From Marinobacterium stanieri (GTDB taxonomy: Bacteria > Pseudomonadota > Gammaproteobacteria > Pseudomonadales > Balneatricaceae): a stretch of DNA of 64,000 bases. Where the stretch lies: NCBI RefSeq assembly GCF_900155945.1, contig NZ_FTMN01000005.1, positions 248,001-312,000 on the forward strand, written 5' to 3'. Of the stretch, positions 28,080-55,749 are shown one piece after another; positions within the stretch are counted from its first letter, which is position 1; each line of letters starts with the position of its first letter. Position numbers and translations under genes: made by a program. Below the pieces are notes generated by a model. That model had not been told where the DNA came from. It was given only the letters and a program-made list of their open reading frames with translations, and ran no database searches.

Positions 28080-28110
28080 TGGCCCGCGCTTTGCTTATTC
28101 CCGTCAGGAA
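28080..28110 (+). promoter_or_regulatory. Sigma-54 promoter with adjoining palindrome, amt1
   Basis: TGGCCC (28080-28085), five bases, then TTGCT (28091-28095) fit the -24/-12 consensus TGGCAC-N5-TTGCW. Three bases after the GC, TTCCC-GTC-AGGAA (28098-28110) is a 5-3-5 palindrome with one mismatch. The same arrangement precedes dmmA, the GcvT-like gene and amt2. No clear NtrC box was found upstream. Confidence 0.75.
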
Positions 28111-28194
28111 ACTCAATATCCTTTTGATAAAAGTCAGCAATGCCCTCACAGGGCGCAGCTGACAGGGAAATCAAGCGACCTTCGGGAGAACGAT

Positions 28195-29544
28195 ATGGAC
28201 GGCATGGTGCTGGAACTGGGGTACGCCCTGGATACGTTTTACTTCTTGATGTGTACAGCGTTGGTGATGTGGATGGCAGCGGGTTTTGCCATGCTCGAGG
28301 CTGGCCTTGTACGTGCCAAGAACACGGTTGAAATCTTGAACAAGAACGCGCTGCTCTACGGCGTGGCCTGTGTGGTTTATCTACTTGTGGGTTACAACAT
28401 CATGTACCCCGCCAACCCGGTCAGCTCTGTGATTCCGGGCATCGACTTCCTGCTGGGAGCAGACAACACCACTGAATCTGTTGTGGCCGGTGGTGATGAT
28501 GCACCTTACTACTCCGGTATGGCTGACTTTATCTTCCAGGCCGTATTCGCGGCAGCAACCATGTCTATCGTCTCCGGTGCCGTGGCCGAGCGTATGAAGC
28601 TCTGGCCGTTCCTGACCTTTGCGGTCGTTATGGTTGCGGTTATCTACCCGGTTGAAGGTTACTGGAAATGGGGTGGCGGCTTCCTGGATCAGCTGGGCTT
28701 CCAGGACTTTGCAGGCTCTGTGGTTGTGCACATGGCGGGTGCTGCGGCTGCCCTGGCTGCAGTTATTCTGGTCGGTCCGCGTAAAGGCAAATACGGCAAG
28801 AACGGCGAAGTCCGCGCCATTCCGGGCGCTAACCTGCCGATGGCGACTCTGGGCATGTTCATCCTGTGGATGGGCTGGTTCGGCTTTAACGGCGGTTCCG
28901 AGCTGAAGATCGCCAACGTTGAAGAAGCCAACGCCGTTGCCAAAATCTTCGTGAACACCAACGCCGCTGCGGCTGCTGGCATGATCGTCGCGGCCCTGTT
29001 TGCCCGTGCTCTGTTCGGTAAAACCGACCTGACCATGACCATCAACGGTGCTTTGGCCGGTCTGGTGGCCATTACGGCTGAACCTCTGCAGCCGTCTGCC
29101 GGCCTGGCATCCATCATCGGTGCCATCGGTGGTCTGGTTGTAGTGATGTCAGTTGTCACCTTGGACAAGCTGAAGCTGGATGACCCTGTCGGTGCCATCT
29201 CTGTACACGGCTCTGCCGGTATCTGGGGCATCTTCGCAGTAATGCTAAGCAACGATGATGCGACTTTCACAGGTCAGTTGATCGGTACTGTCGCAACCTT
29301 CGCCTGGATGTTCATAGCCAGCTTCGTGGTACTGCTGATCATCAAGGCAGTTATGGGTCTGCGTGTCACCGAAGAAGAAGAGATGGAAGGTATGGATGTC
29401 AGCGAATGCGGCATGCAGGCCTATCCGGAATTCGGCCCGGGCCACTCCTCCATGGGGCTGAGCAGCGGCTCTGACAAGTCGGGTACTGCCAGCAAGGGCC
29501 AGGCGGCTCCTGGCTACCAGGCCAGCCAGGCTGTAAGTAAATAG
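28195..29544 (+). CDS. amt: Ammonium transporter, Amt family (first copy)
   Basis: A 449-residue Amt/MEP/Rh protein with about 11 membrane helices. The pore twin histidines are visible in SVVVHMAGAAA (about residue 180) and AISVHGSAGIWG (about 336). The N-terminal segment AGFAMLEAGLVRAKN (about 24-38) is typical. The C-terminal tail (about 390-449) is long and Ser/Gly-rich. The start at 28195 follows a GGGAG site. Its sigma-54 promoter points to control by nitrogen or amine supply. Amt proteins also carry methylammonium, which fits the adjacent amine-demethylation genes. Confidence 0.9.
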   Translation: MDGMVLELGYALDTFYFLMCTALVMWMAAGFAMLEAGLVRAKNTVEILNKNALLYGVACVVYLLVGYNIMYPANPVSSVIPGIDFLLGADNTTESVVAGGDDAPYYSGMADFIFQAVFAAATMSIVSGAVAERMKLWPFLTFAVVMVAVIYPVEGYWKWGGGFLDQLGFQDFAGSVVVHMAGAAAALAAVILVGPRKGKYGKNGEVRAIPGANLPMATLGMFILWMGWFGFNGGSELKIANVEEANAVAKIFVNTNAAAAAGMIVAALFARALFGKTDLTMTINGALAGLVAITAEPLQPSAGLASIIGAIGGLVVVMSVVTLDKLKLDDPVGAISVHGSAGIWGIFAVMLSNDDATFTGQLIGTVATFAWMFIASFVVLLIIKAVMGLRVTEEEEMEGMDVSECGMQAYPEFGPGHSSMGLSSGSDKSGTASKGQAAPGYQASQAVSK

Positions 29545-29566
29545 AGTTCCAACCTCCTCCAGAGAC

Positions 29567-29592
29567 AAAAGGCCCTTAGGGGCCTTTTTTTT
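29567..29592 (+). terminator. Intrinsic terminator after amt1
   Basis: GGCCC (29571-29575) pairs with GGGCC (29580-29584), extended by A/T pairs, and is followed by eight T. The rest of the 316-base gap to the next gene (about 29593-29800) shows nothing I recognise. Confidence 0.85.
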
Positions 29593-29801
29593 AGCTTTGG
29601 ACTCAGCATGCTTAACGTCTGTGGTGCCGCAGAGCAGTAGTGAATACTGGCCAGAAGGTATCGATTTAATCTAAGGGCAGACCGCTATGCCGTTCACGGA
29701 TAGCTGAATGGATAGCTTGGAGATGGGAGTCTGTCGGCAGCTGCCAGGTTTGCAGTAGCTGTTCAGGGAAGTAATTGCTGAGCGTTACTCAGATCCAGTG
29801 C

Positions 29802-29832
29802 ATAAAAAAGGGGCTGTTACTGGAACAGCCCC
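29802..29832 (-). terminator. Terminator after the leftward GcvT-like gene
   Basis: GGGGCTGTT (29810-29818) and AACAGCCCC (29824-29832) form a 9-bp stem with a 5-base loop. On the minus strand it is followed by CTTTTTTATG, giving the T-tract. Confidence 0.88.
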
Positions 29833-29860
29833 TGTGCGTGCACAACGCTGAAAAGCGTAC

Positions 29861-31000
29861 TTAGCCTTTTGCGGTGCGCTTTTTCTTCTCCGGGTCATCA
29901 AATGGCAGGGTATGGGCGATGGCCGATACCTCAAGGCTGCCTTTGACCTGAAGGGGTGTGCCCTGCTCGGCGTAAGGAACGGCCAGTCGGGCAATCGCCA
30001 TGGACTTGTCGGTCAGGCGTGAGTACATGGCGCAGGTGATATCACCCACCTTTTTGCCATCGGCCCAGAGTTCATCGCCTTCGGCCGCGGCTTCTTTACC
30101 CTCCAGCAATACACCGAAAATCTTGAATCGCTCCTTGCCCTGCAGACGGAAGTGCTCGTAGGCACCGCAGAACTCGGTCTTGTCCTTGGAAACGGTGAAA
30201 TCCAGACCCAGTTCCCAAAGGGTATCGCCAGCCGGTTCATTTTCGAACGGGTACATCTCGGAGTTATCGAACGGATAGAACAGCAGATAGCTTTCGGTGC
30301 GCAGCCAGTCCAGTGCGGTGAAAGAGCAGGGGATAATACCGAATGCCTTACCCTCTTCCAGAATACCGTCCCAGATGGTGGCGGCGTCGGCGGCCTTACA
30401 GAAGATCTCGTAACCGCGCTCGCCGGTGTAGCCGGTGCGTGAGATGGTGATCGGGCAGCCAAACAGTCGCGCGTGGGTGTGGTGGAAGTAGGCCAGATCA
30501 CGAATGCCGGGGATATGTTCGGCGAGGAAATCCACCGCAGTGGGGCCCTGCAGGGACAGGTCATGCATGTCGTCATCAAATAATACGGCTACCTGCTTGC
30601 CGAGTGCGGCCTGGGTCAGGCGTTCGTAACCGGCGCCAGTACCGTGCACTACCATGAACGAGTTGGGACCCATGCGGTAGATAACGCAATCATCGATGAA
30701 CTTGCCCCCTTCATTCAGCATGGTCGCGTAGACCGCCTTGCCGGGATAAAGCTTGGAAATATCGCGGGTGGTAGCCCACTCCAGCAGGCTCTCGGCGTGG
30801 GGGCCGACATAGTGCACCTTCTTCAGACCTGATACATCCATCAAGCCTGCCTTGGTGCGGATCGCTTCGTGTTCATCCGCCAGGGTGTAACCGCTTTTAC
30901 TGTAGGTCCAGGCCGTCGGCAGGCCGTTCCAGTCTTCCAGGTTGGAACCCAGGGCACGATGTTTTTCAGCCAGTGCGGCGATACGCCATGAATTAGCCAT
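29861..31000 (-). CDS. GcvT-like tetrahydrofolate-dependent aminomethyltransferase, probable partner of dimethylamine monooxygenase
   Basis: A 379-residue GcvT-family protein (folate-binding domain about residues 30-290, C-terminal barrel about 300-375). The ATG at 31000 follows GGAGAG. It lacks the full glycine-cleavage operon context and is divergent from dmmABC, sharing with dmmA the same type of sigma-54 promoter. In marine methylated-amine users a fourth dmm gene (dmmD) accompanies dmmABC and, as I recall, encodes this kind of protein. The likely role is to move the formaldehyde-level carbon released by demethylation onto tetrahydrofolate. A DmdA-type DMSP demethylase is a less likely alternative, given the context. 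Confidence 0.7.
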   Translation of the reverse strand: MANSWRIAALAEKHRALGSNLEDWNGLPTAWTYSKSGYTLADEHEAIRTKAGLMDVSGLKKVHYVGPHAESLLEWATTRDISKLYPGKAVYATMLNEGGKFIDDCVIYRMGPNSFMVVHGTGAGYERLTQAALGKQVAVLFDDDMHDLSLQGPTAVDFLAEHIPGIRDLAYFHHTHARLFGCPITISRTGYTGERGYEIFCKAADAATIWDGILEEGKAFGIIPCSFTALDWLRTESYLLFYPFDNSEMYPFENEPAGDTLWELGLDFTVSKDKTEFCGAYEHFRLQGKERFKIFGVLLEGKEAAAEGDELWADGKKVGDITCAMYSRLTDKSMAIARLAVPYAEQGTPLQVKGSLEVSAIAHTLPFDDPEKKKRTAKG

Positions 31001-31031
31001 TGTTCTCTCCATTCGTCTAGATAAGGCTTGA

Positions 31032-31081
31032 TTCCTGTAAGGGAATTATTATTCCTGATAGGAAAGGCAAGTTTCGGGCCA
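31032..31081 (-). promoter_or_regulatory. Sigma-54 promoter with palindromes for the GcvT-like gene
   Basis: On the minus strand TGGCCC-GAAAC-TTGCC (31081-31066) is a -24/-12 element, and two bases later comes the near-perfect palindrome TTCCT-ATC-AGGAA (31064-31052). A second, imperfect copy TTCCT-GTA-AGGGA lies at 31032-31044, and a third, TTCCT-ATG-GGGAA, upstream at 31101-31113. The gene starts at 31000. Confidence 0.75.
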
Positions 31082-31113
31082 TGCACAAGCAAGCTGATGA
31101 TTCCTATGGGGAA

Positions 31114-31428
31114 AAAATATTTCGTGGCCCTTGTTGCTGTGGCATGTATCTGAATCTGAGCATTCACGGCGCAGAGTGCGCCCCGTTTTAGGTCAACGCC
31201 CTTTTTTGTGAGCCCGTTTCCCTGCTGTTCTGTCTTTAGAAGGGGAGCCAGCCTGACCGCTCACTCACTATCCAGGCTCTGTATGCGGCGCATTTGACGT
31301 GGAGTCGACGGACGTTTGCCCTGAACTGAGTCACGCAGACATGGAGATGCACTGTTGCTGTGCCCCTATCAGCCTGTCTATTGGGTACGATTTTTTTAAC
31401 TCTTTGAAATGCATCGAATTTATTTTTT
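31114..31428. other. Central part of the divergent dmm control region, no gene seen
   Basis: A+T-rich at its right end and without a supported coding region. Enhancer sites for the activator of the two flanking sigma-54 promoters would be expected here, but I found no repeated motif beyond the palindromes listed. Confidence 0.4.
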
Positions 31429-31458
31429 TGGCAGAAGTTTTGCTTTTCCTGATAAGAA
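31429..31458 (+). promoter_or_regulatory. Sigma-54 promoter with adjoining palindrome, dmmA
   Basis: TGGCAG (31429-31434), five bases, then TTGCT (31440-31444). Two bases after the GC the palindrome TTCCT-GAT-AAGAA (31446-31458) follows, one change from the perfect form. dmmA starts 48 bases downstream. Confidence 0.75.
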
Positions 31459-31505
31459 ATAAATTATACCACTAATAAATTTTGGGTAACCCAAAAGGAG
31501 TAGTG

Positions 31506-32051
31506 ATGCAGATCGATCCATCCATCAAGAGTCGTCCAAAATACGTGGCGCCCGAGCTGGTGGCGTCGGCGGGGTTGCAGCTGTTCGTCAGTGAATCCGA
31601 TGCCGGTCACCTGCTGGAGCCGTTATACCGTCAGTGCTCGGAATCCGGTGCTCAGTGGCTGGTGGCAGAGCCGGGCAATGCGCCGGGTACGCTGGCTGAT
31701 TCCCTGTCCGGTTACCTGCAGCGTGTCCTCAGTGATGCTCCTGTTACCACCCGTCTGTACGTAGCGGGGAGCGAAGGTTTTCTGTGGGACATCCGCAATC
31801 AGGCCCTGTCTGCCGGGCTGGTGGATGAGCAGATTCAGCTTGCTCCTCCGGTCACCAAGGCGCGGCGCCTGTTCTGCACCCATTGCTACACCCTGATGGA
31901 AGGGGTGACGTCCAGCCCGCACACCTGCAGTGGCTGTGGGCGTTTATTGCTGGTGCGGGATCATTTTGCCCGTCTGCACGGTGCCTATGTGGGCGTGCAG
32001 ATCAATGCCGAAGATCCTGAGGAACAACTGGAACAGGAGGTATTGCAGTAA
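31506..32051 (+). CDS. dmmA: Dimethylamine monooxygenase subunit A
   Basis: A 181-residue DmmA-family protein. The C-terminal part holds two Cys pairs, Cys124-x2-Cys127 and Cys141-x2-Cys144, a rubredoxin- or zinc-ribbon-like metal site. The ATG at 31506 follows AGGAG at 31496-31500; a TTG at 31482 is less likely. Together with DmmB and DmmC it oxidatively demethylates dimethylamine to methylamine and formaldehyde. Its stop overlaps the dmmB start (TAATG), so the two are coupled. Confidence 0.85.
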   Translation: MQIDPSIKSRPKYVAPELVASAGLQLFVSESDAGHLLEPLYRQCSESGAQWLVAEPGNAPGTLADSLSGYLQRVLSDAPVTTRLYVAGSEGFLWDIRNQALSAGLVDEQIQLAPPVTKARRLFCTHCYTLMEGVTSSPHTCSGCGRLLLVRDHFARLHGAYVGVQINAEDPEEQLEQEVLQ

Positions 32052-33001
32052 TGAGTATCGACAGCATACCCGTGCGGGTCATGGCCATTGAGCAGGTGGC
32101 GCCGCTGATTCGAGAGTTCAAGCTGGAAGCGATTGAAGGCAAGCTGCCGGCGTTTTCACCCGGCAGTCATGTGCAGGTAATTATGCCCGGTGAGGCGCGT
32201 GAAATTCGCAATGCCTACTCGCTGTGCAGCGATCCAGCCATGCCGCGTCGTTACAGCATCGCGGTGCGTCTGCAGGAGGACTCTCGTGGGGGCTCCTCCT
32301 TCATGCACGGGGAAGTCAACGTTGGGGATGAACTGGCGATCACGCCGCCGGCGAACCTCTTCGCCCCCGTGATGGCGGCCCGCAAGCATCTGCTGATTGC
32401 CGGTGGCGTGGGTATCACACCGTTCATGTCCTATATCCCCGAACTCAAGCGCCAGGGTGCGGAATTCGAGCTGCACTATCTGTATCGGGGCAGTCAGACC
32501 GGTGCCTATCTGGATCAACTGCAGCAACAGCTGGGCTCTGCCTTGCATCGCTATGACTCGGGGCAGGGGAACAAGTGTGACTTGAGCACAGTGCTGAGCG
32601 ATCAGGGGCCGGGGACGCATGTGTATATCTGTGGCCCTGAATCCCTGATTGAAGGTGTCTGCAGCACCGCAAAGGCATTGGGCTGGCCGGAAAGCCTTAT
32701 TCACTACGAGGCCTTTGCCGCCCCTGAGCCGGGTGAGCCGTTCAAGGCCCAGCTGACCCGCAGCGGCAAAACCCTGGATGTGGCAGCCGATGAAAGCCTG
32801 CTGGAAGCGCTGGAACGTGAAGGCATTGCCGTGCCCAACCTCTGCCGTGGCGGTGTCTGTGGCCAGTGTGCAACGCCCGTGATCGAAGGCGCAGTGGAAC
32901 ACCGCGATGAGTTCCTTTCGGCCGATGAGAAAGCCAACGGCGGTTGCATCATGCCCTGCGTCTCCCGTGCCGCCGGCAAACACCTTACTCTGGATATATA
33001 G
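32051..33001 (+). CDS. dmmB: Dimethylamine monooxygenase subunit B, flavin/2Fe-2S reductase (PDR/VanB family)
   Basis: A 316-residue reductase: FMN-binding domain (about residues 1-100), NAD-binding domain (about 105-225, with LLIAGGVGITPFMSY) and a C-terminal plant-type 2Fe-2S ferredoxin (CRGGVCGQC near 274 plus a fourth Cys about 30 residues later). This matches phthalate dioxygenase reductase and VanB. It passes electrons from NAD(P)H to the haem-dependent oxygenase component. It overlaps dmmA by one base and ends 11 bases before dmmC. Confidence 0.88.
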   Translation: MSIDSIPVRVMAIEQVAPLIREFKLEAIEGKLPAFSPGSHVQVIMPGEAREIRNAYSLCSDPAMPRRYSIAVRLQEDSRGGSSFMHGEVNVGDELAITPPANLFAPVMAARKHLLIAGGVGITPFMSYIPELKRQGAEFELHYLYRGSQTGAYLDQLQQQLGSALHRYDSGQGNKCDLSTVLSDQGPGTHVYICGPESLIEGVCSTAKALGWPESLIHYEAFAAPEPGEPFKAQLTRSGKTLDVAADESLLEALEREGIAVPNLCRGGVCGQCATPVIEGAVEHRDEFLSADEKANGGCIMPCVSRAAGKHLTLDI

Positions 33002-33011
33002 GAGCGACGTC

Positions 33012-34031
33012 ATGCGCATGTCACCCAAACCCGTACAGACCTTTCGTGACGACTTCAGCTACAGCAACAGCCCCGGCGCGATTGCACGTTTTCCCTTTCC
33101 GTTTCCGGATGATGAATACCGCTATTCGGTGAATATCGAGCCGCATACCACGCCGGGTCCGGAAGGGTCGGTATATGAGTTCCTGCTGGATATCGACGAG
33201 CACTATCTATCGGAGATGGCCGAGCGCGATATCGTGCTCAAGGAAAACCCACAGCGCTGCCTGGCCATGCCGCATATGGACCTGGCCTGCTGGGACATGA
33301 TCGAACGTTGCATGCAGTCACTGGCGGCTGATTATCCACAGCATTTCAGCCTCAGCACTGAAGGTGATCAGTGGACCTGGGAAAACCGTCTGCTCAACAT
33401 CAAGGACAGCTTCACCTTTGGTGACAGCAGCACCTTGCCGTTGCCGCCGATGGAATACATGGGCCGCCAGCTGCAAGGCGACTTTGCCCTGCTGGATCAG
33501 CGTGATGGCGACCTGTTTCTGGATGCTGGCATTGTTACCTGTCCGGCGGACTGGTCACTGGCCTTTGATGCCGGCATGAGCTTCTCGGAATGGCACGGCC
33601 CCGTGCCGCTGGCGCATGAAATGGGCGTGTTCGAGCGTGCACTGAAATATCTGACTGCGATTCCGGTCGGCCGTCCGGTACGACGTCTGAACTGGACCCT
33701 CACTGTCAACGCCCGCATGGATACGTCTCCCGAAACCTATCCCAACTGGGGCACCGATCGAGCCAGTTTGACGGCGGATAATGTAGGCGAGAAAGTGCAC
33801 CTGCGTGTGGAATTGCAGGTACTGGATCGTATGCCGCGCAGCAACGCTCTGATGTTCAGCATCCGCACCTTCCTGATCAGCTTTGATGATCTGGTCACCA
33901 ACCCGGACTGGGCGCGCCGCATGCACCGCGTACTGAAAACACTGCCGCCTGAACTGGTTGAATACAAAGGACTGGGCCGCTATCACGATCTGGCGGTGGA
34001 ATGGCTGTCTCAGTACGATCCGGCCAACTGA
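33012..34031 (+). CDS. dmmC: Dimethylamine monooxygenase subunit C, haem-dependent oxidative N-demethylase (DUF3445)
   Basis: A 339-residue protein of the DUF3445/HODM family, the catalytic haem protein of dimethylamine monooxygenase. The family segments MPHMDLACWDMIERC (about residues 82-96) and the Trp/Pro-rich middle (PADWSLAFDAG, about 179) are visible. The ATG at 33012 is preceded by AGGAG at 32999-33003; a second ATG at 33018 is possible. It follows dmmB in the same operon and supplies methylamine to the gmaS pathway. Confidence 0.85.
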   Translation: MRMSPKPVQTFRDDFSYSNSPGAIARFPFPFPDDEYRYSVNIEPHTTPGPEGSVYEFLLDIDEHYLSEMAERDIVLKENPQRCLAMPHMDLACWDMIERCMQSLAADYPQHFSLSTEGDQWTWENRLLNIKDSFTFGDSSTLPLPPMEYMGRQLQGDFALLDQRDGDLFLDAGIVTCPADWSLAFDAGMSFSEWHGPVPLAHEMGVFERALKYLTAIPVGRPVRRLNWTLTVNARMDTSPETYPNWGTDRASLTADNVGEKVHLRVELQVLDRMPRSNALMFSIRTFLISFDDLVTNPDWARRMHRVLKTLPPELVEYKGLGRYHDLAVEWLSQYDPAN

Positions 34032-34042
34032 CAGGAGATTCT

Positions 34043-34369
34043 ATGGGCTGGGTATACTTGCTGATCGCCGGAGTGCTGGAGTGCCTCTGGGCGATCGGCC
34101 TCAAGTACAGTGATGGCTTTACCCGCTTCTGGCCTTCGGTGGTGACCGCCGTATTGATAGTGGTGAGCCTTGGGCTGTTGTCCTTGGCGATGCGCACCAT
34201 TCCGGTGGGCACCGCTTATGCGGTCTGGTCCGGCATCGGCGCCTCGGCACTGGCAGTGGTGGGTATTCTGTTCATGCAGGAACCGGGCGGCCTGGTGCGA
34301 ATCGGTTGTATCGGCATGATTGTGTTGGGGGTGGCCGGACTCAAATTATTCGGCGACACTGCGGTGTGA
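34043..34369 (+). CDS. Small multidrug resistance exporter, Gdx/SugE type
   Basis: A 108-residue SMR protein with four membrane helices. The essential Glu is in GVLECLWAIGLKYSDGF (residue 13), and the Gdx-type features GLKYSDGFTR and PVGTAYAVWSGIGA are present. Gdx proteins export guanidinium, and other SMRs export quaternary ammonium compounds. The ATG follows AGGAG and lies 11 bases after dmmC, so it is co-transcribed. A role in expelling excess alkylated amines or guanidinium by-products is inference. Confidence 0.85.
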   Translation: MGWVYLLIAGVLECLWAIGLKYSDGFTRFWPSVVTAVLIVVSLGLLSLAMRTIPVGTAYAVWSGIGASALAVVGILFMQEPGGLVRIGCIGMIVLGVAGLKLFGDTAV

Positions 34370-34403
34370 TACCTGAGGGCGTAACATGGAAGAGAGGTGA
34401 AAT

Positions 34404-35165
34404 ATGACACAGACAGATCAACCTGTAGTGCTGGTAACGGGTGCAAGCAAAGGAATAGGGCTGGGCATTGCGCGGGTCTTTGCCGCCAAGGGATATCGCG
34501 TGGCCATCGCCGCGCGTCATCAGGAACAGGCTCAGGCGGCTGCAACCAGCCTGGGTGAAGGCCATTTGGGACTGGTGGCGGATGTCACCAGTCGCAGCAG
34601 TCTGGATCAGGCGGTAGCAACGGTGACAGAGACCTTTGGTCAGCTGGATGTGCTTTGTGCCAATGCTGGTATCTTCCCCTCGGCCAGTCTGGAAACCATG
34701 CCGGAAGAAGATTGGGACCAGGTGATGAATACCAATCTCAAGGGGCTGTTCAACAGTGTTCAGGCGGCGCTGCCGGCGCTGAAAAAAAGCAGCTGTGGCC
34801 GTATTGTGGTGACCTCCTCAATCACGGGCCCTGTTACAGGCTTCCCGGGCTGGGCACACTACGGGGCCAGCAAGGCCGGGCAGCTGGGCTTTATTCGTAC
34901 GGCCTCCATCGAGCTGGCTCGTTACGGAATTACCGTGAACGCCGTAATGCCGGGCAATATCATCACCGAAGGGCTGGAGGACATGGGGGAAGATTACCTG
35001 CGCCAGATGGCCGCATCGATCCCGATGAAGCGTCTTGGGCAGGTGGAGGATATCGGCAACGCGGCGGCCTTTTTCGCGTCGCCCGAAGCCGGTTATATCA
35101 CGGGGCAGACCTTGATCGTGGATGGTGGTCAGATTCTGCCGGAGTCCCTGGAAGCGGTAGGCTAA
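34404..35165 (+). CDS. Short-chain dehydrogenase/reductase (FabG-like)
   Basis: A 253-residue classical SDR. The cofactor motif is VTGASKGIGLGIA (about residues 11-23), NNAG-like ANAG lies near 87, and the catalytic Ser/Tyr/Lys set is Ser138 region, Tyr and Lys in HYGASKAGQ (about 152). The C-terminal ITGQTLIVDGGQ is typical of FabG-type enzymes. The substrate is not predictable. It ends the dmm operon, before a terminator. Confidence 0.85.
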   Translation: MTQTDQPVVLVTGASKGIGLGIARVFAAKGYRVAIAARHQEQAQAAATSLGEGHLGLVADVTSRSSLDQAVATVTETFGQLDVLCANAGIFPSASLETMPEEDWDQVMNTNLKGLFNSVQAALPALKKSSCGRIVVTSSITGPVTGFPGWAHYGASKAGQLGFIRTASIELARYGITVNAVMPGNIITEGLEDMGEDYLRQMAASIPMKRLGQVEDIGNAAAFFASPEAGYITGQTLIVDGGQILPESLEAVG

Positions 35166-35190
35166 GCGTCAGCTGAGGGGATAGACTCTA

Positions 35191-35225
35191 AGCCTTGTCA
35201 GGGGGCGCCTCGACAAGGCTTTGTG
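35191..35225 (+). terminator. Intrinsic terminator ending the dmm operon
   Basis: AGCCTTGTC (35191-35199) pairs with GACAAGGCT (35212-35220) over a 12-base loop, followed by a T-rich TTGTGTTTT. Confidence 0.8.
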
Positions 35226-35340
35226 TTTTCCTCGCTCCGCAGCCACTTTACCAATGGTCCTCCGATGAAGACGCCGTCTTTGCTTAGGGTAAAAGTCCCC
35301 GCGCTGGAGCCCTGGCTGGGACAATTGGCCCAGTTTAGAA

Positions 35341-35916: not shown

Positions 35917-35950
35917 AAGCCAACATCTCCCCTGCAGGTTAGGAAGTGCA

Positions 35951-37408: not shown

Positions 37409-37410
37409 AC

Positions 37411-47702: not shown

Positions 47703-47789
47703 TTTGAGTCCCTTAAAGTCGAAGGCCCAGTATATACGGGGCTTTCAAATCGATTCTTAAAGCCTATAGTGAAGCTTTTGAGCCTTTTA

Positions 47790-48411: not shown

Positions 48412-48733
48412 GGGCGGTGATCTCCCAGGTACCCACGAAATCCTTTTCGATTACAAAGGCATCACCGGGGCCAACTTCTACGGGCTCGCCGCCGTCAGGA
48501 GTGATGATGGCGGAGCCTTCAATCAGGTGAATAAACTCCCAGCTTGCGTAGGTGGAGTGCCAGGTGCCGGGTGAGGCTTCCCACCAGCCGCTGATCATGC
48601 TGCCGTCATCGGCGGTGTATTCGATCCAGGTGGTCATGGTGGGTTCACCGGCGACAACGGTCCAGCCCGGCAGGGCGTCGGTCATCGGTTCCGCCTTGCG
48701 GTTCGGCAGGCGGGTAATGGGTGCATTACTCAT
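48377..48733 (-). CDS. Cupin-domain protein (cupin_3/DUF861, EutQ-like)
   Basis: A 118-residue single cupin. The region GTWHSTYASWEFIHLIEGSAIITPDGGEPVEVGPGDAFVI shows the two cupin motifs, but the metal-binding His pattern is reduced, as in DUF861 proteins. The ATG at 48733 follows GAGGA. It reads 44 bases after tmm, in the same direction, so it is the last gene of the tmm transcript. Cupins of this type are often next to methylated-amine genes, where their function is unknown. Its 3' end recurs at 36371-36421. Confidence 0.78.
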   Translation of the reverse strand: MSNAPITRLPNRKAEPMTDALPGWTVVAGEPTMTTWIEYTADDGSMISGWWEASPGTWHSTYASWEFIHLIEGSAIITPDGGEPVEVGPGDAFVIEKDFVGTWEITAPIVKHFTIKLK

Positions 48734-48777
48734 GATCGGTCCTCGAAAGATGCCGGCCGGAGCCGGCATGGGGTGAG

Positions 48778-50151
48778 TTAGCCTGCCTTGCGGGCAGCGT
48801 CGGTCAGCGGTGCATCGGCCAGGTAGGCTTCCATGGAGTCGTCCAGCGCATCCAGCCAGGGGGTATGGTGCGGGGGCGCCATGGTGCCGGTCATCAGTGA
48901 GGCATAGGAGTGGTCACGGAAGGTCATGATGTTGTCCTTCTTGTGCTGTTTCCACTCAAGGAAGGTGCGATTGACGCCGTCGATGTCGAAGGTCGGGTAA
49001 TCGGTCTGCTCGATCAGGTGCAGAATATAGGCACCCTGGAACTCGTACATCTCTTTGGCGGTTTCCAATGCCAGTTCCTGCTCGCGCCATTTCAGGCTGT
49101 CGGCGGTCATCTCGGCCTTGGACGGCAGGGCAATACGGCCCAGAATCACGTCACGCACATACCAGGCCTGGGCGTCGAACATGTTGAAGGAGTACCACTG
49201 GTCCTGCATGCCGATGTAGAAGAACTGCGGATTGTCTTCCCAGACCACACCCTTGTAGAGATTCAGCGGCCAGAGGCGGTTGTCGGTCTGAAGGCGCAGG
49301 TCGTCGGCGAGGAAGGGGAAGTGGTGCAGGTAACCGGTGCAGAGGATGATGGCGTCGATTTTCTTGCTGCTGCCGTCCTTGAAGTAGGCAGTGTCGGTAT
49401 CCACATGGGTCAGCGCCGGCTTTTCTTCCCAGTTGTCTGGCCATTTGAAGCCCATGGGCTCGCTGCGGTAGCAGCTGGTGATGGAGCGGGCACCGTATTT
49501 ATAGCACTGGGAACCGATATCTTCGGCCGAGTAGCTGGCGCCGACAATCAGAATATCCTTGTCCTTGAACTCCAGCGCATCGCGGAAGTCATGGGCGTGC
49601 AGTACGCGGCCACCAAAGGTTTTAAAGCCTTCATACTCGGGCACCTTGGGGGTCGAGAAGTGGCCACTGGCGCAGACGACATAGTCGAATACTTCGCTGT
49701 AGGTCGTGTCGGTGTTGTGGTCGTGCACCGCAACGGTGAACTGGCCGGTGGTTTCGTCGTAGGAAATGTTGCGTACCGGGGTGTTAAAGCGGATGTATTT
49801 GCGCACGCCGGCCTTGTCTACGCGCCCTTTAATGTAGTCCCAGAGCACTTCGCGCGGCGGATAGGAGGCGATCTGACGTCCGAAATGCTCCTCGAAGGTG
49901 TAGTCGGCGAATTCCAGGCACTCTTTAGGGCCGTTGGACCAGAGGTAGCGGTACATGCTGCCGTGTACCGGTTCACCGTTCTCATCCAGGCCAGTGCGCC
50001 AGGTGTAGTTCCACATGCCGCCCCAGTCATCCTGCTTCTCGAAGCAGACCAGCTCCGGAATTTCGGCGCCCTTGGCTTCAGCTGACTGGAAGGCTCGTAA
50101 CTGTGCCAGGCCGCTGGGGCCTGCGCCGATGATGGCTACGCGTTTTTTCAT
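48778..50151 (-). CDS. tmm: Trimethylamine monooxygenase
   Basis: A 457-residue flavin-containing monooxygenase. The FAD motif is GAGPSG (residues 9-14), followed by [16 protein letters not shown] (about 39); the NADPH motif is VGASYSAED (about 206), and the FMO hallmark [12 protein letters not shown] lies at about 181-192. Sequence and length agree closely with bacterial Tmm, which oxidises trimethylamine to TMAO with NADPH and oxygen. The ATG at 50151 follows GGAGATAACC. It lies downstream of the PAS/regulator/kinase genes on the same strand and opposite to tdm. Confidence 0.93.
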
Positions 50152-50222
50152 GATGGTTATCTCCGCATCAATCCTGTTTTGGGATTCCGATGGCCACATC
50201 AGGTGGCCGTTGATAACCAAAT

Positions 50223-50278
50223 TACCCCTGAGATCCTGTGGGCAAAATTCCCCGTTGAAGGTAACCCCGCGGGGCTAC
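50223..50278. promoter_or_regulatory. tmm upstream region with a NarL-type half-site and a palindrome
   Basis: TACCCCT at 50223-50229 matches the NarL-type heptamer (TACYYMT), the same half as in the perfect site at 52947-52962. A second palindrome, GTAACCCCGCGGGGCTAC (50261-50278), overlaps the stop of the PAS gene. It may be a regulatory site or a processing hairpin of the upstream operon. Confidence 0.4.
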
Positions 50279-51048
50279 ATTGGGGTGTGTGCGGAGGGGG
50301 TAGAGAAGGTGAGAACCATGCCTTCAACGCCCAGAATGGCGCCATTGTCGGCATAAATGCCCTGGCCTTTTTCAATCACGGGGATGAGGCGCCCATCAGC
50401 GTGCTGCAGGCGGTAATGCAGCTCGAAACGCTCGCCACGGCTGAGTGCATCCTGCACCTGTTCCCACACGGGATCAGCGTCCTCAGGGTGGATCAGGTCA
50501 CCGTAGTTGAGGCTGGACTGGTTGGTCAGCACTTCCGGGGGATAACCGGTCAGCTCCAGCGAGCCGGCACTGACAAACGCCATGGTCCAGTCCCGGTTGT
50601 TGCGGCTGCGATAGAGCATGGCCGGTAATTGATTGACCAGCTGGGTGAGGCTGCGCCAGTCCGCATCACGCTGGCGGGAACGGGACATCTGGTCGCTGAT
50701 ATCGGTCAGCGTGATACTGATGGGCCAGAGCGTATTGCTGTCGACAGGCTGGTGTTTCAGCTCGCACCAGAGACTGTTGCTCTGGGCGCTCAGCACACGG
50801 GCCTGCAGGGGGCTTTCCTGTGTCAGCAATGCCTGTTGCCATAGAGGGCGATCACCAGGATGCAGGTGCTCATGAAACAGGGTGCTGCAGTTGTCGCCTT
50901 TAAGGCGCTGCCAGCCCTGATTGGCGGCCAGAATCTGTCCATGTTCGTTGACCACCAATACAGCGATATCCAGGCTGTCGAGTACCCGGTCGAGCGGAAT
51001 GGGGTCAGGCGCCGGTTCTGCTGACCGGGCCAGCAGGCGGCTCAGCAT
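50275..51048 (-). CDS. PAS-domain signalling protein
   Basis: A 257-residue protein with two PAS domains: about residues 22-118 (VLDSLDIAVLVVNEHGQILAAN) and about 130-250 (a PAS_3/PAC-type, WTMAFVSAGSLELTGYPPEVL and IHPEDADPVWEQV). It carries no kinase, GGDEF or helix-turn-helix domain, so it must pass its signal by protein contact. The start at 51048 overlaps the response-regulator stop by seven bases. Position and overlap make it part of the same operon; it may be the sensory partner of the kinase, which has no transmembrane input domain. Confidence 0.8.
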   Translation of the reverse strand: MLSRLLARSAEPAPDPIPLDRVLDSLDIAVLVVNEHGQILAANQGWQRLKGDNCSTLFHEHLHPGDRPLWQQALLTQESPLQARVLSAQSNSLWCELKHQPVDSNTLWPISITLTDISDQMSRSRQRDADWRSLTQLVNQLPAMLYRSRNNRDWTMAFVSAGSLELTGYPPEVLTNQSSLNYGDLIHPEDADPVWEQVQDALSRGERFELHYRLQHADGRLIPVIEKGQGIYADNGAILGVEGMVLTFSTPSAHTPM

Positions 51049-51740
51049 GTCTCGTTCTCCGGCAGGGGATGGTTGTGTACCCAGGCCGCCAGTTCCAGGC
51101 GGGAGTGCAGATTGAGTTTGCGCAGCAGGCTTTTCACATACACCTTCACGGTGCTGTCGCTGATGCCCAGCTCCCGCGCGATCAGCTTGTTGCTGAGGCC
51201 CCGGGAGATCCAGATCAGCGTTTGGCGTTCGCGTTCGGTCAGCACTTCGTACCAGCGTTCATCCGCGACCACATTGGCGCCGGCAGGTGTGGCGGTGGTT
51301 TCGGCAGGCTCGCCCTGCTGGCGCAGCCCTTCACGCAGCAGCAACAGCATGTCGTCATCCAGTCCCACGTGCCCTTCCAGCACGTTATTGAGGCGTTCGA
51401 TCATCATGTCGGGGGCGGTATCCTTGAGCAGATAGCCGTCGGCGCCGATACGCAGTGCATCCATAAGGTGGACGGGGTCATCGGAGGCGGTCAGCATCAC
51501 TACGCGGATATCTACATTGAACTGCTTGATCTGTTGCAGCAGGTCGAGCCCGCTGCTGTCCGGCATCTGCAGGTCCAGCAGCACCAATTCCGGTGCCGCG
51601 CGGTGGATATGCTCCAGCACGCCGGCGGGGCCATCAAATTCCGCGACCACTTCAAAGTGATCGGTATCCTGCAGCAGTTCAGCGACTCCGCGCCGAAACA
51701 GCGGATGGTCATCGACCAGAATTACCGGCGTGTGTGTCAT
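51042..51740 (-). CDS. NarL/FixJ-type response regulator
   Basis: A 232-residue regulator. The receiver domain (about residues 4-120) has the acidic pair Asp10-Asp11, the phosphoacceptor Asp56 in LVLLDLQMP, and a Lys in GYLLKDTAPD. The LuxR-type helix-turn-helix (about 165-225) shows LTERERQTLIWISRGLSNKLIARELGIS-like spacing. It is coupled to the kinase by a four-base overlap (ATGA) and to the PAS gene by seven. A NarL-type 7-2-7 palindrome occurs between this operon and tdm (52947-52962), so tdm is a probable target. Confidence 0.88.
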   Translation of the reverse strand: MTHTPVILVDDHPLFRRGVAELLQDTDHFEVVAEFDGPAGVLEHIHRAAPELVLLDLQMPDSSGLDLLQQIKQFNVDIRVVMLTASDDPVHLMDALRIGADGYLLKDTAPDMMIERLNNVLEGHVGLDDDMLLLLREGLRQQGEPAETTATPAGANVVADERWYEVLTERERQTLIWISRGLSNKLIARELGISDSTVKVYVKSLLRKLNLHSRLELAAWVHNHPLPENETC

Positions 51741-52876
51741 GAGCAGAGCTCCTCTGTAATCAGTTCAATGCAGGTGCCCTGGCCGGCGCGGGACTCGATG
51801 CGGAAATGGGCGCCGATGCGTTTGGCGCGTTCTTCCATGATGCCAAGCCCGAAACTGTCGGCGTTGCGCTCGCTGGGCAGGCCCTGGCCGTCGTCTTCAA
51901 TACGGATGTGGATACCTTTCTCGCCGTGCGGCAGAAGCTGGATACGGACCTTCTGTGCATGGGCATGACGGACGGCGTTGCTGAGGGCTTCGCGCAGAAT
52001 AAGCAGCAGTTCGACGGCGATCACCTCTGGCAGGTTGCGGTCACAGAGGCGGTTATCGAGCTCGAACATCAGGCCTGAATGGCGCTCGAATTCGGCGATG
52101 GCCGTTTGCAGCTCTTTCTCCAGGCTGTGGTGCAGGCGGATGCGGGAGCTGCTGATCAGTTCTCGTGTTTGCCGATAGGCCTGGCGGGCCTGTTGCCTGA
52201 GTCCATGCAGCCGGTCGCGCATTTCGTCATTGGGGAGCTGTTCGACCTGTTGCTCCAAACGGCCGGTTTGCAGGCACAGATAACAGAGCTGCTGGGCGAC
52301 GGAATCATGCAAGGTGGCGGCCAGGGATTGCTGCAGACTCTGACGTTGCTGGCGTAGCTGGTTGCTGTGGGCAAGGTTGAGGTCCAGCCCCTCGCGGATG
52401 GCCTGGCCCAGGTCACAGAGCACCTGACGCCAATGGTCCGCCTTGTCCGCATCCGGGGTGGGTGCCAGTAACCAGAGCTGCAACCCACTCTCGCCATCGG
52501 GCATACGGATGCCCTGAACCGATAAATCGGCCAGTGTTTCCCGGGTTTGCAGGCGCGTCCGGTCACCACGGGTGGCCAGATCCAGCTGATATCCGAGCCG
52601 GCTGACCTCAAGTGCACTGGCAGCATCATCGGTGCCATTCAGGTGCCAGGTGCTTTGGTGATCGGTGCGCCAGGCCAGCCAGAGTGGCAGGGAAAAGCCG
52701 GATGCGACTGCACCCTGTCGGAGCAGGTCCGGCAGGGTGGCATCCAGATCATCACCACAGCGAATCAGGCTGAGGGTCATCCGGTGCAACAGCTCCCGCT
52801 GGGGGCGGTAACGTCGTTTGTCAGCGCCGGCCTCTGCCTGCGTGCGTCCAAACCAGCGTGTGAGACTGACAGCCAC
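51737..52876 (-). CDS. Soluble NarX-type sensor histidine kinase
   Basis: A 379-residue HisKA_3 kinase. The phosphorylated His is in ATLHDSVAQQL (His190), followed by a dimerisation helix, and the C-terminal ATPase domain shows ALSNAVRHAHAQKV (about 292-305), EDDGQGL and FGLGIMEERAKRIGA. The N-terminal part (about 30-155) resembles a GAF domain; no membrane segment is seen, so the enzyme is cytoplasmic. Translation starts with GTG at 52876 after AGGAGG. It heads the kinase/regulator/PAS operon, divergent from tdm. Confidence 0.87.
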   Translation of the reverse strand: MAVSLTRWFGRTQAEAGADKRRYRPQRELLHRMTLSLIRCGDDLDATLPDLLRQGAVASGFSLPLWLAWRTDHQSTWHLNGTDDAASALEVSRLGYQLDLATRGDRTRLQTRETLADLSVQGIRMPDGESGLQLWLLAPTPDADKADHWRQVLCDLGQAIREGLDLNLAHSNQLRQQRQSLQQSLAATLHDSVAQQLCYLCLQTGRLEQQVEQLPNDEMRDRLHGLRQQARQAYRQTRELISSSRIRLHHSLEKELQTAIAEFERHSGLMFELDNRLCDRNLPEVIAVELLLILREALSNAVRHAHAQKVRIQLLPHGEKGIHIRIEDDGQGLPSERNADSFGLGIMEERAKRIGAHFRIESRAGQGTCIELITEELCS

Positions 52877-52946
52877 AGCAACCTCCTGTGCGAATGTGTT
52901 GTTAACGGGAAGCTAAATGCACACATCATGCCAGCAACAGATGGAT

Positions 52947-52962
52947 TACCCCTGCAGGGGTA
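52947..52962. promoter_or_regulatory. NarL-type 7-2-7 palindrome between the kinase operon and tdm
   Basis: TACCCCT-GC-AGGGGTA is a perfect palindrome in the 7-2-7 layout recognised by NarL-family regulators. It lies 71 bases upstream of the kinase start and 178 bases before tdm. Confidence 0.72.
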
Positions 52963-52987
52963 GCTCCTTTGACGCATTGCCCATTAA

Positions 52988-53000
52988 TTCCTGTAAGTAA
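52988..53000 (+). promoter_or_regulatory. Palindromic element resembling the sigma-54 associated motif, tdm
   Basis: TTCCT-GTA-AGTAA differs from TTCCT-N3-AGGAA by one base. Unlike the four other copies, it has no convincing -24/-12 element next to it. Confidence 0.45.
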
Positions 53001-53139
53001 AGAATTTTTACCAAGAGTAGCGGCTCATACATGGGTTTACGGACCCGTCATGCGAGCCGCAAAACAGGGCAATGGGCCCCGAGCATGCACGCAATTGATG
53101 CATGTACAGCCAGGTAAGGCATTTACCGGGAGTGGTGTT

Positions 53140-55458
53140 ATGAATATGCAAATGAATGACCTGCTGGGTGGAGGGCTGGCGGCCGGTGTGCGCCGCCGCC
53201 TTCGAGCCCAGCAGGCAATACAGCTGGTGTTGATGCCGGGGGAAGAGGTCTGCATTCAAGGGGCTGACGCCGGCCAGTGCTGCGAAATACTGGCGTTTGA
53301 TGCCAAGGGGCAGTCGGCCGTTGATGCGCTTGAGCTGAATGGATATCAGGCGGGAGCGACAGTGACTCAGGCACAGCTTGAGGCTGGCAGACCCTCCGCC
53401 CAGCGTCTGTTACAGCAGCTCAAAGGGTTCAGCGTCGATCCGCATCAGCTCTCGGCTGCCGTGCACCTTGCGCCGGATGAGTTGCCTTGTGTGATTACAG
53501 CCAGTGAACGTAGTGGCCCGGTCAGTCTGGTTTTGATCGCGCCGGGTCTGGATATGCGCCCGGATGAGCAGCTGACCGTGTCGGAGCTGGATATCAGCAT
53601 TCACTATCTGCCGGAGCGCACGCCGGAACTGCCTGAGCCGCTGGCGCAGCCGGTTCAGGACCTGCATATTCCGCACAGCAGTGCGCGCGTGTACCGGGTC
53701 AAGGCAGGTGAGTGGATCCAGATTATCGATGTGGCCGGCAAACAGTGCTCCGATTTTATCGCCTTTGATGAGGCGGCCCTGGAACAGGGTGAAGAGGTGA
53801 CGCTGGATGCCGTGGCGACGCGTACTCTGGCCGGTCAGGCACTGCCCCAGCCAGGGCTCTATTCCCGTTTTGCCGACAGCCGCCTGCAGCCGATGCTGGA
53901 ACTGGTGCAGGACACTGTGGGCCGCCATGACAGCTTTCTGCTGGCCTGCACACCGAAATACTATGAAGACGAAGGCTACTTCGGCCATGTCAGCTGCACG
54001 GATAATTTCAACCGGGCCCTGAAAGACTATGGCGTTAAGCCGCGTGCCGGCTGGCCTGCCATCAATTTCTTCTTCAACACTCTGATCGAACCCTGTGGCA
54101 CGGTCGGCATGGATGAGCCCTGGTCCCGTCCCGGTGATTATGTATTGCTGCGGGCAAACCGCGACCTGATCTGTGCTTCTTCAGCCTGTCCGGACGACAT
54201 CGACCCGGCCAACGGCTGGGCCCCCACCGATATTCATGTCCGCGTGTATGGCGCGGAAAACCAGTTTGAGCGCGCCATTGCCCATCGTGTGGTGCCCGAG
54301 GAGTTGCCGCGTATGACCCTGCAAACCGCTTTCCACAGCCGCACGTCAAAATTGACGCGCCACTTCGCTGAATACCGTGGCTACTGGGTACCCACCGAGT
54401 TTGAAGGCTGGGGCGCTCGTGCCGAGTATCTGGCCTGTCGCGAGAAGGTCGCGGTAATGGACCTGTCGCCGCTGCGAAAATTTGAGATCCTGGGGCCGGA
54501 TGCCGAAGCGCTGCTGCAATATGCACTGACGCGTAACGTCCGCCGTCTGGCGGTGGGAGAGATTGTCTACTCTGCGGCCTGCTTTGAAACCGGCGGTATG
54601 GTGGATGACGGTACCCTGTTCCGTATCAGTGAGCAGGCATTCCGTTGGGTGTGCGGTGATCCCTGGAGCGGTACCTGGCTGCGGGAGTTGGCTGCCCAGA
54701 GAGGCGACCAGGTCAGTATTCGTGAGTCCACGGATCAACTGCATAACCTCGCTGTGCAGGGTCCGAATAGCCGGGAGCTGCTGAAACAGCTGATCTGGCA
54801 GCCGGAAACACGTACCCCCGTCAGCGAGCTGAAGTGGTTCCATTTCACGGTTGGCCGCCTGGGGGGGCCGGAAGGGATTCCGCTGATGGTGTCGCGGACC
54901 GGTTATACCGGCGAGCTGGGCTTTGAAGTCTGGTGTCACCCGGATGACGGCACTGAACTCTGGGATGCGATCTGGGAGGCCGGGCAGGATTATGGTCTGG
55001 CACCTTTGGGTTTTGATGCGCTGGATATGCTGCGTATCGAAGCGGGGCTGATCTTTGCAGACCATGAATTCTGTAACCAGACCAACCCCTATGAAGCCGG
55101 TATCGGCTTTACCGTGCCGATGAAAACCAAGGAAGAGGATTTCAGCGGGCGGACGGCCCTGCAGCGGCAGGCACCGGAAAGTCGGCACAAACTGGTTGGT
55201 CTTGTGCTGGAAGGCAATGAGCCTGTGCATCATGGAGACATTGTCTACGATGGGCGTATGCCGGTAGGGCAAATTACCAGCGCAACACCCTCGCCACTGA
55301 TGGGCAAAATGATTGCGCTGTGCCGGGTGCAACCTGACTGGTCAGCCCCCGGAACGGAGCTGGAAGTCGGGCAGCTGGATGGTTTGCAGAAACGCTTGCC
55401 AGCCGCTGTTCAGGCACTGCCGTTTCATGACCCCGAACGGATCAAAGTGAGAAGCTGA
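53140..55458 (+). CDS. tdm: Trimethylamine N-oxide demethylase
   Basis: A 772-residue fusion: an N-terminal DUF1989 region (about residues 1-385) and a C-terminal GcvT-like tetrahydrofolate-binding region (about 400-765). Tdm splits TMAO into dimethylamine and formaldehyde, and the folate domain captures the formaldehyde. Three Cys at 270, 286 and 350 have the same spacing as the zinc ligands I recall for the Methylocella enzyme. The ATG at 53140 follows GGGAGTGG; an in-frame start 57 codons earlier would be in the control region. Tmm next door supplies TMAO. Confidence 0.9.
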   Translation: MNMQMNDLLGGGLAAGVRRRLRAQQAIQLVLMPGEEVCIQGADAGQCCEILAFDAKGQSAVDALELNGYQAGATVTQAQLEAGRPSAQRLLQQLKGFSVDPHQLSAAVHLAPDELPCVITASERSGPVSLVLIAPGLDMRPDEQLTVSELDISIHYLPERTPELPEPLAQPVQDLHIPHSSARVYRVKAGEWIQIIDVAGKQCSDFIAFDEAALEQGEEVTLDAVATRTLAGQALPQPGLYSRFADSRLQPMLELVQDTVGRHDSFLLACTPKYYEDEGYFGHVSCTDNFNRALKDYGVKPRAGWPAINFFFNTLIEPCGTVGMDEPWSRPGDYVLLRANRDLICASSACPDDIDPANGWAPTDIHVRVYGAENQFERAIAHRVVPEELPRMTLQTAFHSRTSKLTRHFAEYRGYWVPTEFEGWGARAEYLACREKVAVMDLSPLRKFEILGPDAEALLQYALTRNVRRLAVGEIVYSAACFETGGMVDDGTLFRISEQAFRWVCGDPWSGTWLRELAAQRGDQVSIRESTDQLHNLAVQGPNSRELLKQLIWQPETRTPVSELKWFHFTVGRLGGPEGIPLMVSRTGYTGELGFEVWCHPDDGTELWDAIWEAGQDYGLAPLGFDALDMLRIEAGLIFADHEFCNQTNPYEAGIGFTVPMKTKEEDFSGRTALQRQAPESRHKLVGLVLEGNEPVHHGDIVYDGRMPVGQITSATPSPLMGKMIALCRVQPDWSAPGTELEVGQLDGLQKRLPAAVQALPFHDPERIKVRS

Positions 55459-55491
55459 CTCCGTCGGCCCAAAAACCGTCCGTTCTCAACT

Positions 55492-55521
55492 AAAAAAGCG
55501 CCTTTTCAGGGCGCTTTTTTT
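55492..55521 (+). terminator. Intrinsic terminator after tdm
   Basis: GCGCC (55498-55502) pairs with GGCGC (55510-55514), with A-run and T-run flanks extending the stem. The remaining upstream stretch (about 55522-55718) is A+T-rich and holds nothing else I recognise. Confidence 0.85.
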
Positions 55522-55718
55522 ATGCCTGGAGCCGCTGTTATGCACCGTAAAAGAACGCATGCGCACAAAAAAGCCCCTACATAAAGCACGATCAATTATT
55601 CACAAGGTGACAGGGTTTGATTAGAACGCGTCTGTATATTTTTTAATCTAAAAATAGTTCAATAAAAACAATATATTATGAATTACATCTGGATAAATCG
55701 TAAGTTATAAACAGGCAT

Positions 55719-55749
55719 TGGCATAAGCTTTGCTTTTTCTTATCAGGAA
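55719..55749 (+). promoter_or_regulatory. Sigma-54 promoter with adjoining palindrome, amt2
   Basis: TGGCAT (55719-55724), five bases, TTGCT (55730-55734), then three bases later TTCTT-ATC-AGGAA (55737-55749), the mirror of the dmmA copy. The amt2 start is 96 bases downstream. Confidence 0.75.

Follow-up and report, generated by a model that had tools for sequence, protein, structure and literature searches.

A palindrome on the start site of sigma-54 promoters as the probable operator of an XRE-cupin repressor of methylated-amine genes in Marinobacterium and its relatives

Passages of PMC7901475 portray the XRE-cupins of Pseudomonas aeruginosa as repressors with a local reach, which occupy core promoters and DNA adjacent to the gene that encodes them, and say that three Pseudomonas consensus motifs differ among themselves. 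Methylated-amine control has been described in the alphaproteobacterium Ruegeria pomeroyi, where, according to passages of PMC13390433, TmaR is an AraC-type activator, reported in 2026 as a master amine regulator, and TmoR is a GntR-type repressor of tmm. Here we analyse a 64,000-nucleotide stretch of Marinobacterium stanieri (NZ_FTMN01000005.1, positions 248,001 to 312,000; hereafter the window), in which promoters of amine-related genes carry a palindrome, TTCCT-N3-AGGAA, directly after a sigma-54 (−24/−12) element. Methylated amines are an important marine nitrogen source, and sigma-54 promoters are usually regarded as an activator-controlled class. We propose that the palindrome is probably the operator of an autoregulated XRE-cupin repressor that sits on the sigma-54 start site, with NtrC activating the same promoters under nitrogen limitation.

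Four promoters in the window share a composite element in which TGGC-N7-TTGC is followed 2-3 base pairs (bp) later by the palindrome. On the forward strand, the amt1 promoter reads TGGCCCGCGCTTTGC-TTA-TTCCCGTCAGGAA (28080-28110; −24/−12 element at 28080..28094, operator at 28098..28110), the dmmA promoter TGGCAGAAGTTTTGC-TT-TTCCTGATAAGAA (31429-31458; 31429..31443 and 31446..31458) and the amt2 promoter TGGCATAAGCTTTGC-TTT-TTCTTATCAGGAA (55719-55749; 55719..55733 and 55737..55749). On the minus strand, the promoter of a GcvT-like gene reads TGGCCCGAAACTTGC-CT-TTCCTATCAGGAA (31081-31052; 31067..31081 and 31052..31064). Each operator lies at the predicted start site, with a spacer of 2 bp at the GcvT-like and dmmA promoters and 3 bp at amt1 and amt2. 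The sequence read at each position agrees with a preliminary description of this DNA, which had allowed the palindrome 0 to 2 changes; it is perfect at the GcvT-like promoter and has one mismatch at each of the other three. That description had also given the −24/−12 spacing as TGGC-N8/9-TTGC, which has to be corrected to N7 in all four, the usual GG-N10-GC form, found at the purU promoter as well.

The composite occurs in this genome only at these four promoters. The window holds 8 palindromes with at most one mismatch, where 30 Markov shuffles predict 1.5, and 1 perfect one, where they predict 0.03. A scan of the whole 4.68-Mb genome for TGGC-N7-TTGC-N2/3-TTYNYNNNRNRAA, proposed earlier as a check, returned 4 matches, all of them the promoters above, and none in the reversed control. 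Equal frequency of the palindrome elsewhere had been named as grounds for rejecting the idea. The bare word is indeed common, with 107 copies of at most one mismatch in the genome against 50 in the reversed control, whereas the composite is found only here (4 against 0); specificity therefore lies in the combination with position and not in the word alone. One of the 8 window copies, TTCGTCGTAGGAA (49753-49765), falls within tmm coding sequence, probably by chance.

A candidate regulator is encoded just before the window, beside a perfect copy of the operator. On contig 7, where window base 1 is 248001, a gene at 245094-245690 on the minus strand, 2.3 kb before the window start, encodes a 199-residue XRE-cupin protein with PF01381 HTH_3 (residues 21-74) and PF07883 Cupin_2 (132-193), both above cut-off. 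Its relatives in the PDB are distant only: the best is ClgR (E 8.5e-7, helix-turn-helix part), and 1y9q spans both domains. Between this gene and the divergent purU (formyltetrahydrofolate deformylase) lies a perfect operator at 245790-245802, 2.2 kb before the window; the genome holds 10 perfect palindromes, and the surroundings of four were examined. The purU promoter has a −24/−12 element, TGGCAAAGTGATTGC (245878-245892), a weak site, TTACCTTGGTGAA, 2 bp on (245895) and another, TTCCCATCGAGAA, exactly 20 bp further (245915). After purU come sox-like genes, a type III glutamine synthetase family gene and glutamate-synthase-like genes, which we take to be mgd, gmaS and mgs of the N-methylglutamate route for methylamine. 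The 3′ part of this purU-mgd-gmaS-mgs operon runs into the window at 290-8101 on the forward strand, its promoter and operators standing before it.

Operators are arranged in tandem at a fixed phase. The extra copies at 31032, 31101 and 52988 noted in the preliminary description are all present with one change each, and most extra copies are part of a larger design: two operators follow each other at a distance of exactly 20 bp, and in some cases a third precedes the −24 element. At the GcvT-like promoter, TCCCTTACAGGAA (31032..31044, minus strand) lies exactly 20 bp downstream of the start-site operator, and this pair, 31052/31032, is the only tandem double site with at most 3 mismatches in the genome. 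A third copy, TTCCCCATAGGAA (31101..31113, minus strand), lies 49 bp before the start-site operator and resembles upstream copies with 2 mismatches at 47-48 bp in three other genomes (G011, G026 and G084). At amt1, a weak second operator, ATCCTTTTGATAA (28118..28130, forward strand), stands exactly 20 bp downstream with 4 mismatches, and the second site at the same offset has 2 mismatches in G001, G002 and G115.

The same phase dominates among relatives. Site-to-site distances in 128 upstream regions peak at 20 bp, which accounts for 34 of 111 pairs at no more than 2 mismatches and 81 of 379 at no more than 3, against 0-1 pairs at 20 bp in three shuffles. In composite promoters, all from loci fetched by protein searches, a second site (at most 4 mismatches of 10) stands at offset 20 in 46 of 54; since the promoters are related, such counts are of non-independent events. 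Offsets 19 and 21 give 14 and 19, raised because a palindrome shifted by one base tends to match, and other offsets give 0-3. The first operator lies 1, 2 or 3 bp past −12 in 54 of 55 promoters (16, 26 and 12, respectively) and 8 bp past it in the remaining one, among spacers of 0-10 bp.

The operator accompanies the regulator gene from species to species. A contig scan gave 58 loci with relatives of the regulator, mainly in Marinobacterium, Nitrincola, Marinomonas, Amphritea, Neptuniibacter and Oceanobacter, of which 57 are counted, leaving out L075 (partial, 31% match). Within 500 bp upstream of the regulator, 38 of the 57 orthologues have a palindrome with at most one mismatch, compared with 29 of 1939 control windows from the same loci; at two mismatches the figures are 52 of 57 and 285 of 1939. 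The neighbouring operon varies (purU-mgd, mgdA, gmaS-mgs or dmmABC), and sites are present in each setting. Methylated-amine gene matches lie within 10 kb of the regulator in 53 of the 58 loci and are missing from L031, L032, L033, L035 and L075. At L031, from a Nitrincola species, the regulator gene directly follows what appears by eye to be a bioMNY biotin-transport operon (8098-10588), with no palindrome site.

Genome-wide scans give the same association. Among 116 genomes of the family, 39 have a regulator orthologue at E ≤ 1e-40. The composite pattern matches 31 of the 116, 21 with the regulator and 10 without; held to at most one mismatch, it is found in 14 of the 39 regulator-bearing genomes against 1 of the other 77 (p = 4e-7), and at two mismatches in 15 and 3. 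The tandem pattern occurs in 22 of 39 against 1 of 77 by hand tally, the reversed control matching 6 genomes; some single tandem matches are probably noise. A composite (at most one mismatch) or a tandem site is present in 24 of the 32 tdm-bearing genomes that encode the regulator, against 1 of the 10 that lack it (p = 4e-4, hand tally). Sixteen composite loci near the consensus were fetched (L106, L109-L121, L130 and L132), and 15 lie before or near orthologues of amt1, the GcvT-like gene, dmmA or amt2. At L132 (contig 4 of the regulator-bearing genome G012, 16958-16987), a composite with one mismatch has none of the compared amine genes beside it; at a greater distance there is a class-III aminotransferase-like gene. 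The site, its position, its tandem spacing and its co-conservation with the regulator are all observed directly.

Each target promoter has its own pattern of conservation. The amt1 gene (28195..29544, forward strand; ammonium/methylammonium transporter family, Pfam PF00909 and NCBIfam TIGR03644) has an upstream composite in 8 of 23 orthologues, with a spacer of 3 in 8 of 8. Ten further amt1 orthologues have a site with at most two mismatches at −379 to −399, several with TGGCAC...TTAC and a spacer of 3, and glnK lies between that distal site and amt1 in two of three examined (L190 and L193; not detected in L186). The GcvT-like gene (29861..31012, minus strand; folate-binding aminomethyltransferase fold, Pfam GCV_T and GCV_T_C) has the composite upstream in 12 of 23 orthologues. 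For dmmA, the first gene of dmmABC (31506..34031, forward strand; dimethylamine monooxygenase subunits, Pfam DmmA-like, Fer2 and HODM_asu-like), the composite is present in 5 of 24 testable upstream regions and any site with at most one mismatch in 10 of 24. The composite of amt2, a second Amt-family transporter gene (55845..57182, forward strand; Pfam PF00909), is also found in G073, G001 and G006. The dmmA and tdm counts leave out L223 and L250, with 53 and 6 bp of upstream DNA; of the loci at contig starts, L316 and L322 are without a site and L340 has one with 2 mismatches. Upstream of a generic amt paralogue, no site with at most two mismatches was found in 7 of 7 regions examined.

The tdm gene and the genes around it stand outside this set. 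Before tdm (53140..55458, forward strand; trimethylamine N-oxide demethylase, NCBIfam NF053776 at 1071.9 bits, just below the 1100 cut-off) lies an operator-like site, TTCCTGTAAGTAA (52988..53000, forward strand), weakly conserved and without a −24/−12 element, possibly over a sigma-70-type −10 region. In the 29 testable upstream regions (30 of 42 tdm loci were fetched), the composite was found in none and a site with at most one mismatch in 2, without −24/−12, and tdm was rejected as a full member. Several tdm upstream regions (52988-53020 in the window) share TGTAAGTAAAGA-TTTTT, with TTACT/AGTAA half-sites and a weak 20-bp partner; this partly operator-like stretch may belong to another factor. 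Between tmm and tdm lie genes for a histidine kinase, a LuxR-type response regulator and a PAS protein (50275-52876), whose relatives stand beside tmm in L021, L027, L028, L034, L065 and L067; they likely form a separate sensor. The composite pattern was likewise absent from tmm and the eut genes in the whole-genome scan. The suggestion that the element is the unifying switch of the whole region is thus not borne out by these scans, in which the window composites are those of amt1, the GcvT-like gene, dmmA and amt2.

NtrC is a likely candidate for the enhancer-binding protein at these promoters. By an NtrC consensus, 20 of the 55 composite promoters have a site with at most two mismatches within 260 bp upstream, where shuffles predict 1.9, and this enrichment makes NtrC the putative activator. 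In the window, the dmmA promoter has a good site, TGCACTGTTGCTGTGCC (31348..31364, forward strand), 81 bp upstream of its −24 element and identical in G006 (L113).

These features suggest how expression could be tied both to nitrogen limitation and to substrate. We infer that the XRE-cupin protein binds the operator and represses, that an amine-derived ligand lifts repression, that NtrC then activates, and that transcription starts within the operator. One dimer would occupy each 13-bp palindrome. Lying 1-3 bp past −12, which we take to be the C of TTGC, the operator would cover roughly −9 to +4, the stretch that sigma-54 polymerase must melt. The second site exactly 20 bp, or two helical turns, downstream and, at some promoters, the third upstream of −24 would allow two or more dimers to bind cooperatively. 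Without a methylated amine, the repressor would keep the open complex from forming, or transcription from starting up, at purU-mgd-gmaS-mgs, dmmABC, the GcvT-like gene, amt1 (or glnK-amt1), amt2 and its own promoter. An amine-derived metabolite in the cupin pocket would release it, after which NtrC, most likely, would activate. With release and activation both required, expression would need nitrogen limitation as well as substrate. The preliminary description had suggested, without a named factor, a repressor or an unusual co-regulator at the start sites of sigma-54 promoters; the comparative evidence supports an operator of the repressor type and points to the XRE-cupin protein as candidate binder. 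A bolder version, which we think less likely than not, is a "lock on the bubble": the repressor would let sigma-54 polymerase dock and stay poised while forbidding melting. The 60-bp module would then be an AND gate for nitrogen limitation and amine, re-used at some six promoters (purU, gmaS, dmmA, GcvT-like, amt1 or glnK-amt1, and amt2), and across several genera it would have passed from one operon to another.

Several results weigh against the proposed repressor or narrow its reach. In this genome, amt1, dmmA and amt2 have weak 20-bp partners only, with 4-5 mismatches, and the NtrC-like candidates are poor at amt1 (4 mismatches), amt2 (3) and the GcvT-like promoter (also 4). Among the regulator orthologues, 19 of 57 are without a site of at most one mismatch and 5 of 57 without one of at most two. 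Genome G082 (87% complete, 490 contigs) has a perfect composite with no regulator detected; the composite lies on contig 24 at 2002-2031 (L120), about 500 bp before dmmA. Because the regulator itself served to find the named loci, co-occurrence at them is partly built in; scans of whole genomes are free of this selection, but their genomes are related and not independent.

Comparison with other XRE-cupins sets the limits of the motif. The helix SQGM(V/I)SKIEN is found in 52 of 57 regulator orthologues. Of seventeen paralogous XRE-cupins, 25-32% identical, 0 have the 13-bp site with at most one mismatch in the 500 bp upstream, and 13 (L090, L092 and L095-L105) have instead a palindrome of 14 bp that resembles it, TTTCC-N4-GGAAA. 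This suggests a common half-site with altered spacing and agrees with an XRE-cupin binder. TTTCC-N4-GGAAA also stands upstream of 14 of 57 orthologues against 32 of 1939 control windows, so the two site types are not exclusive. Against the proposal, 13 of the 17 paralogues match the 13-bp pattern once two mismatches are allowed, mostly by way of the 14-bp palindrome, and the association fades across the class. Among 369 genomes across the class, 27 have the tandem pattern (26 besides our own), with the own genome excluded 5 of 27 that bear the regulator against 21 of 341 others (p = 0.03), and most class-wide tandem matches are therefore background. Of these five, four are close to the regulator gene, at about 250 bp (G281 and G257), 2.6 kb (G401) and 5.1 kb (G344), and G257 has a whole module, TGGCAAGCCGTTTGC-T-TTCCTGAAGGTAA-N7-TTCCCATCAGGAA. 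Upstream of class orthologue copies, a site with at most one mismatch occurs in 2 of 29 (of 30) against 3 of 107 controls, and one with at most two in 8 of 29 against 20 of 107, neither being significant; the two copies with the closer site are the two most similar to our regulator (71% and 66% identity). As a motif of the whole class the palindrome fails, for regulators of 60% identity or less, and it thus holds for the close orthologue group rather than for wider XRE-cupin relatives.

Could another protein read the palindrome? An AraC-type TmaR-like activator, the LuxR-type response regulator of the window or one of its AraC proteins might do so, since in Ruegeria the AraC-type TmaR binds the tmm, tdm, dmm, gmaS-mgs and mgd promoters (passages of PMC13390433), and a response regulator gene (51042-51740) and genes for two AraC proteins (57500-58543 and 22443-23312) lie in the window. 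We consider this improbable. A TmaR-like query, the AraC/DJ-1 gene beside the XRE-cupin of L072, itself only presumed TmaR-like, has matches in 115 of 116 family genomes at no more than 36% identity among the matches listed. Such near-universal, low-identity matches do not track the site. The query has four matches in our own genome, two of them listed on contigs 8 and 17; the AraC protein at 57500-58543 has no blastp match to it, and the one at 22443-23312 matches in the helix-turn-helix part only. Orthologues of the response regulator lie beside tmm, and many operator loci show none within 10 kb, by a search limited to those surroundings and not genome-wide. TmaR is, moreover, an activator, for which the passages of PMC13390433 give no site. 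A TmaR-type AraC protein was rejected as candidate regulator: the candidate is an HTH_3-cupin protein, listed TmaR-like matches are at most 36% identical, and the window AraC proteins match in the helix-turn-helix part at most.

The remaining alternatives concern how, or whether, a protein acts at the palindrome. The XRE-cupin could bind it as an activator or co-activator of sigma-54 polymerase, as the near-fixed position beside −12 (spacer 1-3 in 54 of 55) would allow. The operator, however, overlies the stretch that has to be melted and the first bases of the transcript, sites are also found in front of the regulator gene and at positions lacking −24/−12, and the P. aeruginosa XRE-cupins with determined regulons repress (passages of PMC7901475), which leaves this role unlikely. 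Much less probable still is that the palindrome acts with no protein of its own, as a feature of the RNA or initial transcript or as an extended sigma-54 signal. It straddles the predicted start site, and the transcript would contain the second copy and a portion of the first. Yet copies upstream of −24 and of the regulator gene have no adjacent sigma-54 element, and from genome to genome the palindrome goes with the regulator; a mere extension of the sigma-54 promoter was rejected because sites exist without −24/−12. Chance similarity has the commonness of the bare 13-mer in its favour (107 copies at one mismatch or fewer) and is barely credible given 4 composites against 0 in the reversed control here and composites at orthologous promoters of other species. 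Repression by the XRE-cupin at the start site is the explanation that we prefer.

If correct, the proposal would supply a clear example from nature of a ligand-sensing repressor positioned where sigma-54 promoters melt. Its practical gain is a named candidate, an operator sequence, a target list and a simple prediction. Searches of open-licence papers yielded no master regulator comparable to TmaR for Marinobacterium, Nitrincola, Marinomonas, Amphritea and relatives, none that joins an XRE-cupin repressor with sigma-54 promoters, and none that gives this motif for amine genes.

Several known systems come close to this one. The locus shares TGGC-N7-TTGC and, at part of the composite promoters, upstream NtrC-like sites with NtrC-dependent sigma-54 promoters, and would add an extra layer of control on the start site. 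HutC of Pseudomonas likewise pairs a substrate-sensing repressor with NtrC/CbrB-dependent sigma-54 promoters, those of the hut genes, for the use of a nitrogen compound; it is a GntR-type protein with a different site, and a position on the start site and tandem phasing are not among its familiar features. In passages of PMC13390433, TmaR and TmoR also govern this pathway, with its genes tmm, tdm, dmm, gmaS-mgs and mgd, and differ from the XRE-cupin in type; the text of that paper is without the words XRE, cupin and palindrom. Three alphaproteobacterial loci, L072-L074, encode a distant XRE-cupin (44-48%), and the DNA before its gene carries a site with 2 mismatches at much the same place. At L072 the XRE-cupin gene stands back to back with the AraC/DJ-1-like, TmaR-like gene between mgd and dmm genes (8807-10570), so both kinds of regulator may work side by side there. 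Like the Pseudomonas XRE-cupin repressors PauR, PsdR and ErfA, in passages of PMC7901475, the M. stanieri protein joins a helix-turn-helix to a cupin domain, has its gene beside its targets, and is predicted to use palindromes in core promoters and a site beside its own gene. The same passages give the Pseudomonas proteins promoters with −35/−10 boxes and mostly one or two local targets, whereas here the promoters have −24/−12 elements, the operators a tandem 20-bp phase, and the targets belong to methylated-amine use. XRE-cupin repressors and sigma-54 promoters are each known; the sequence evidence is best explained by their new combination at methylated-amine genes.

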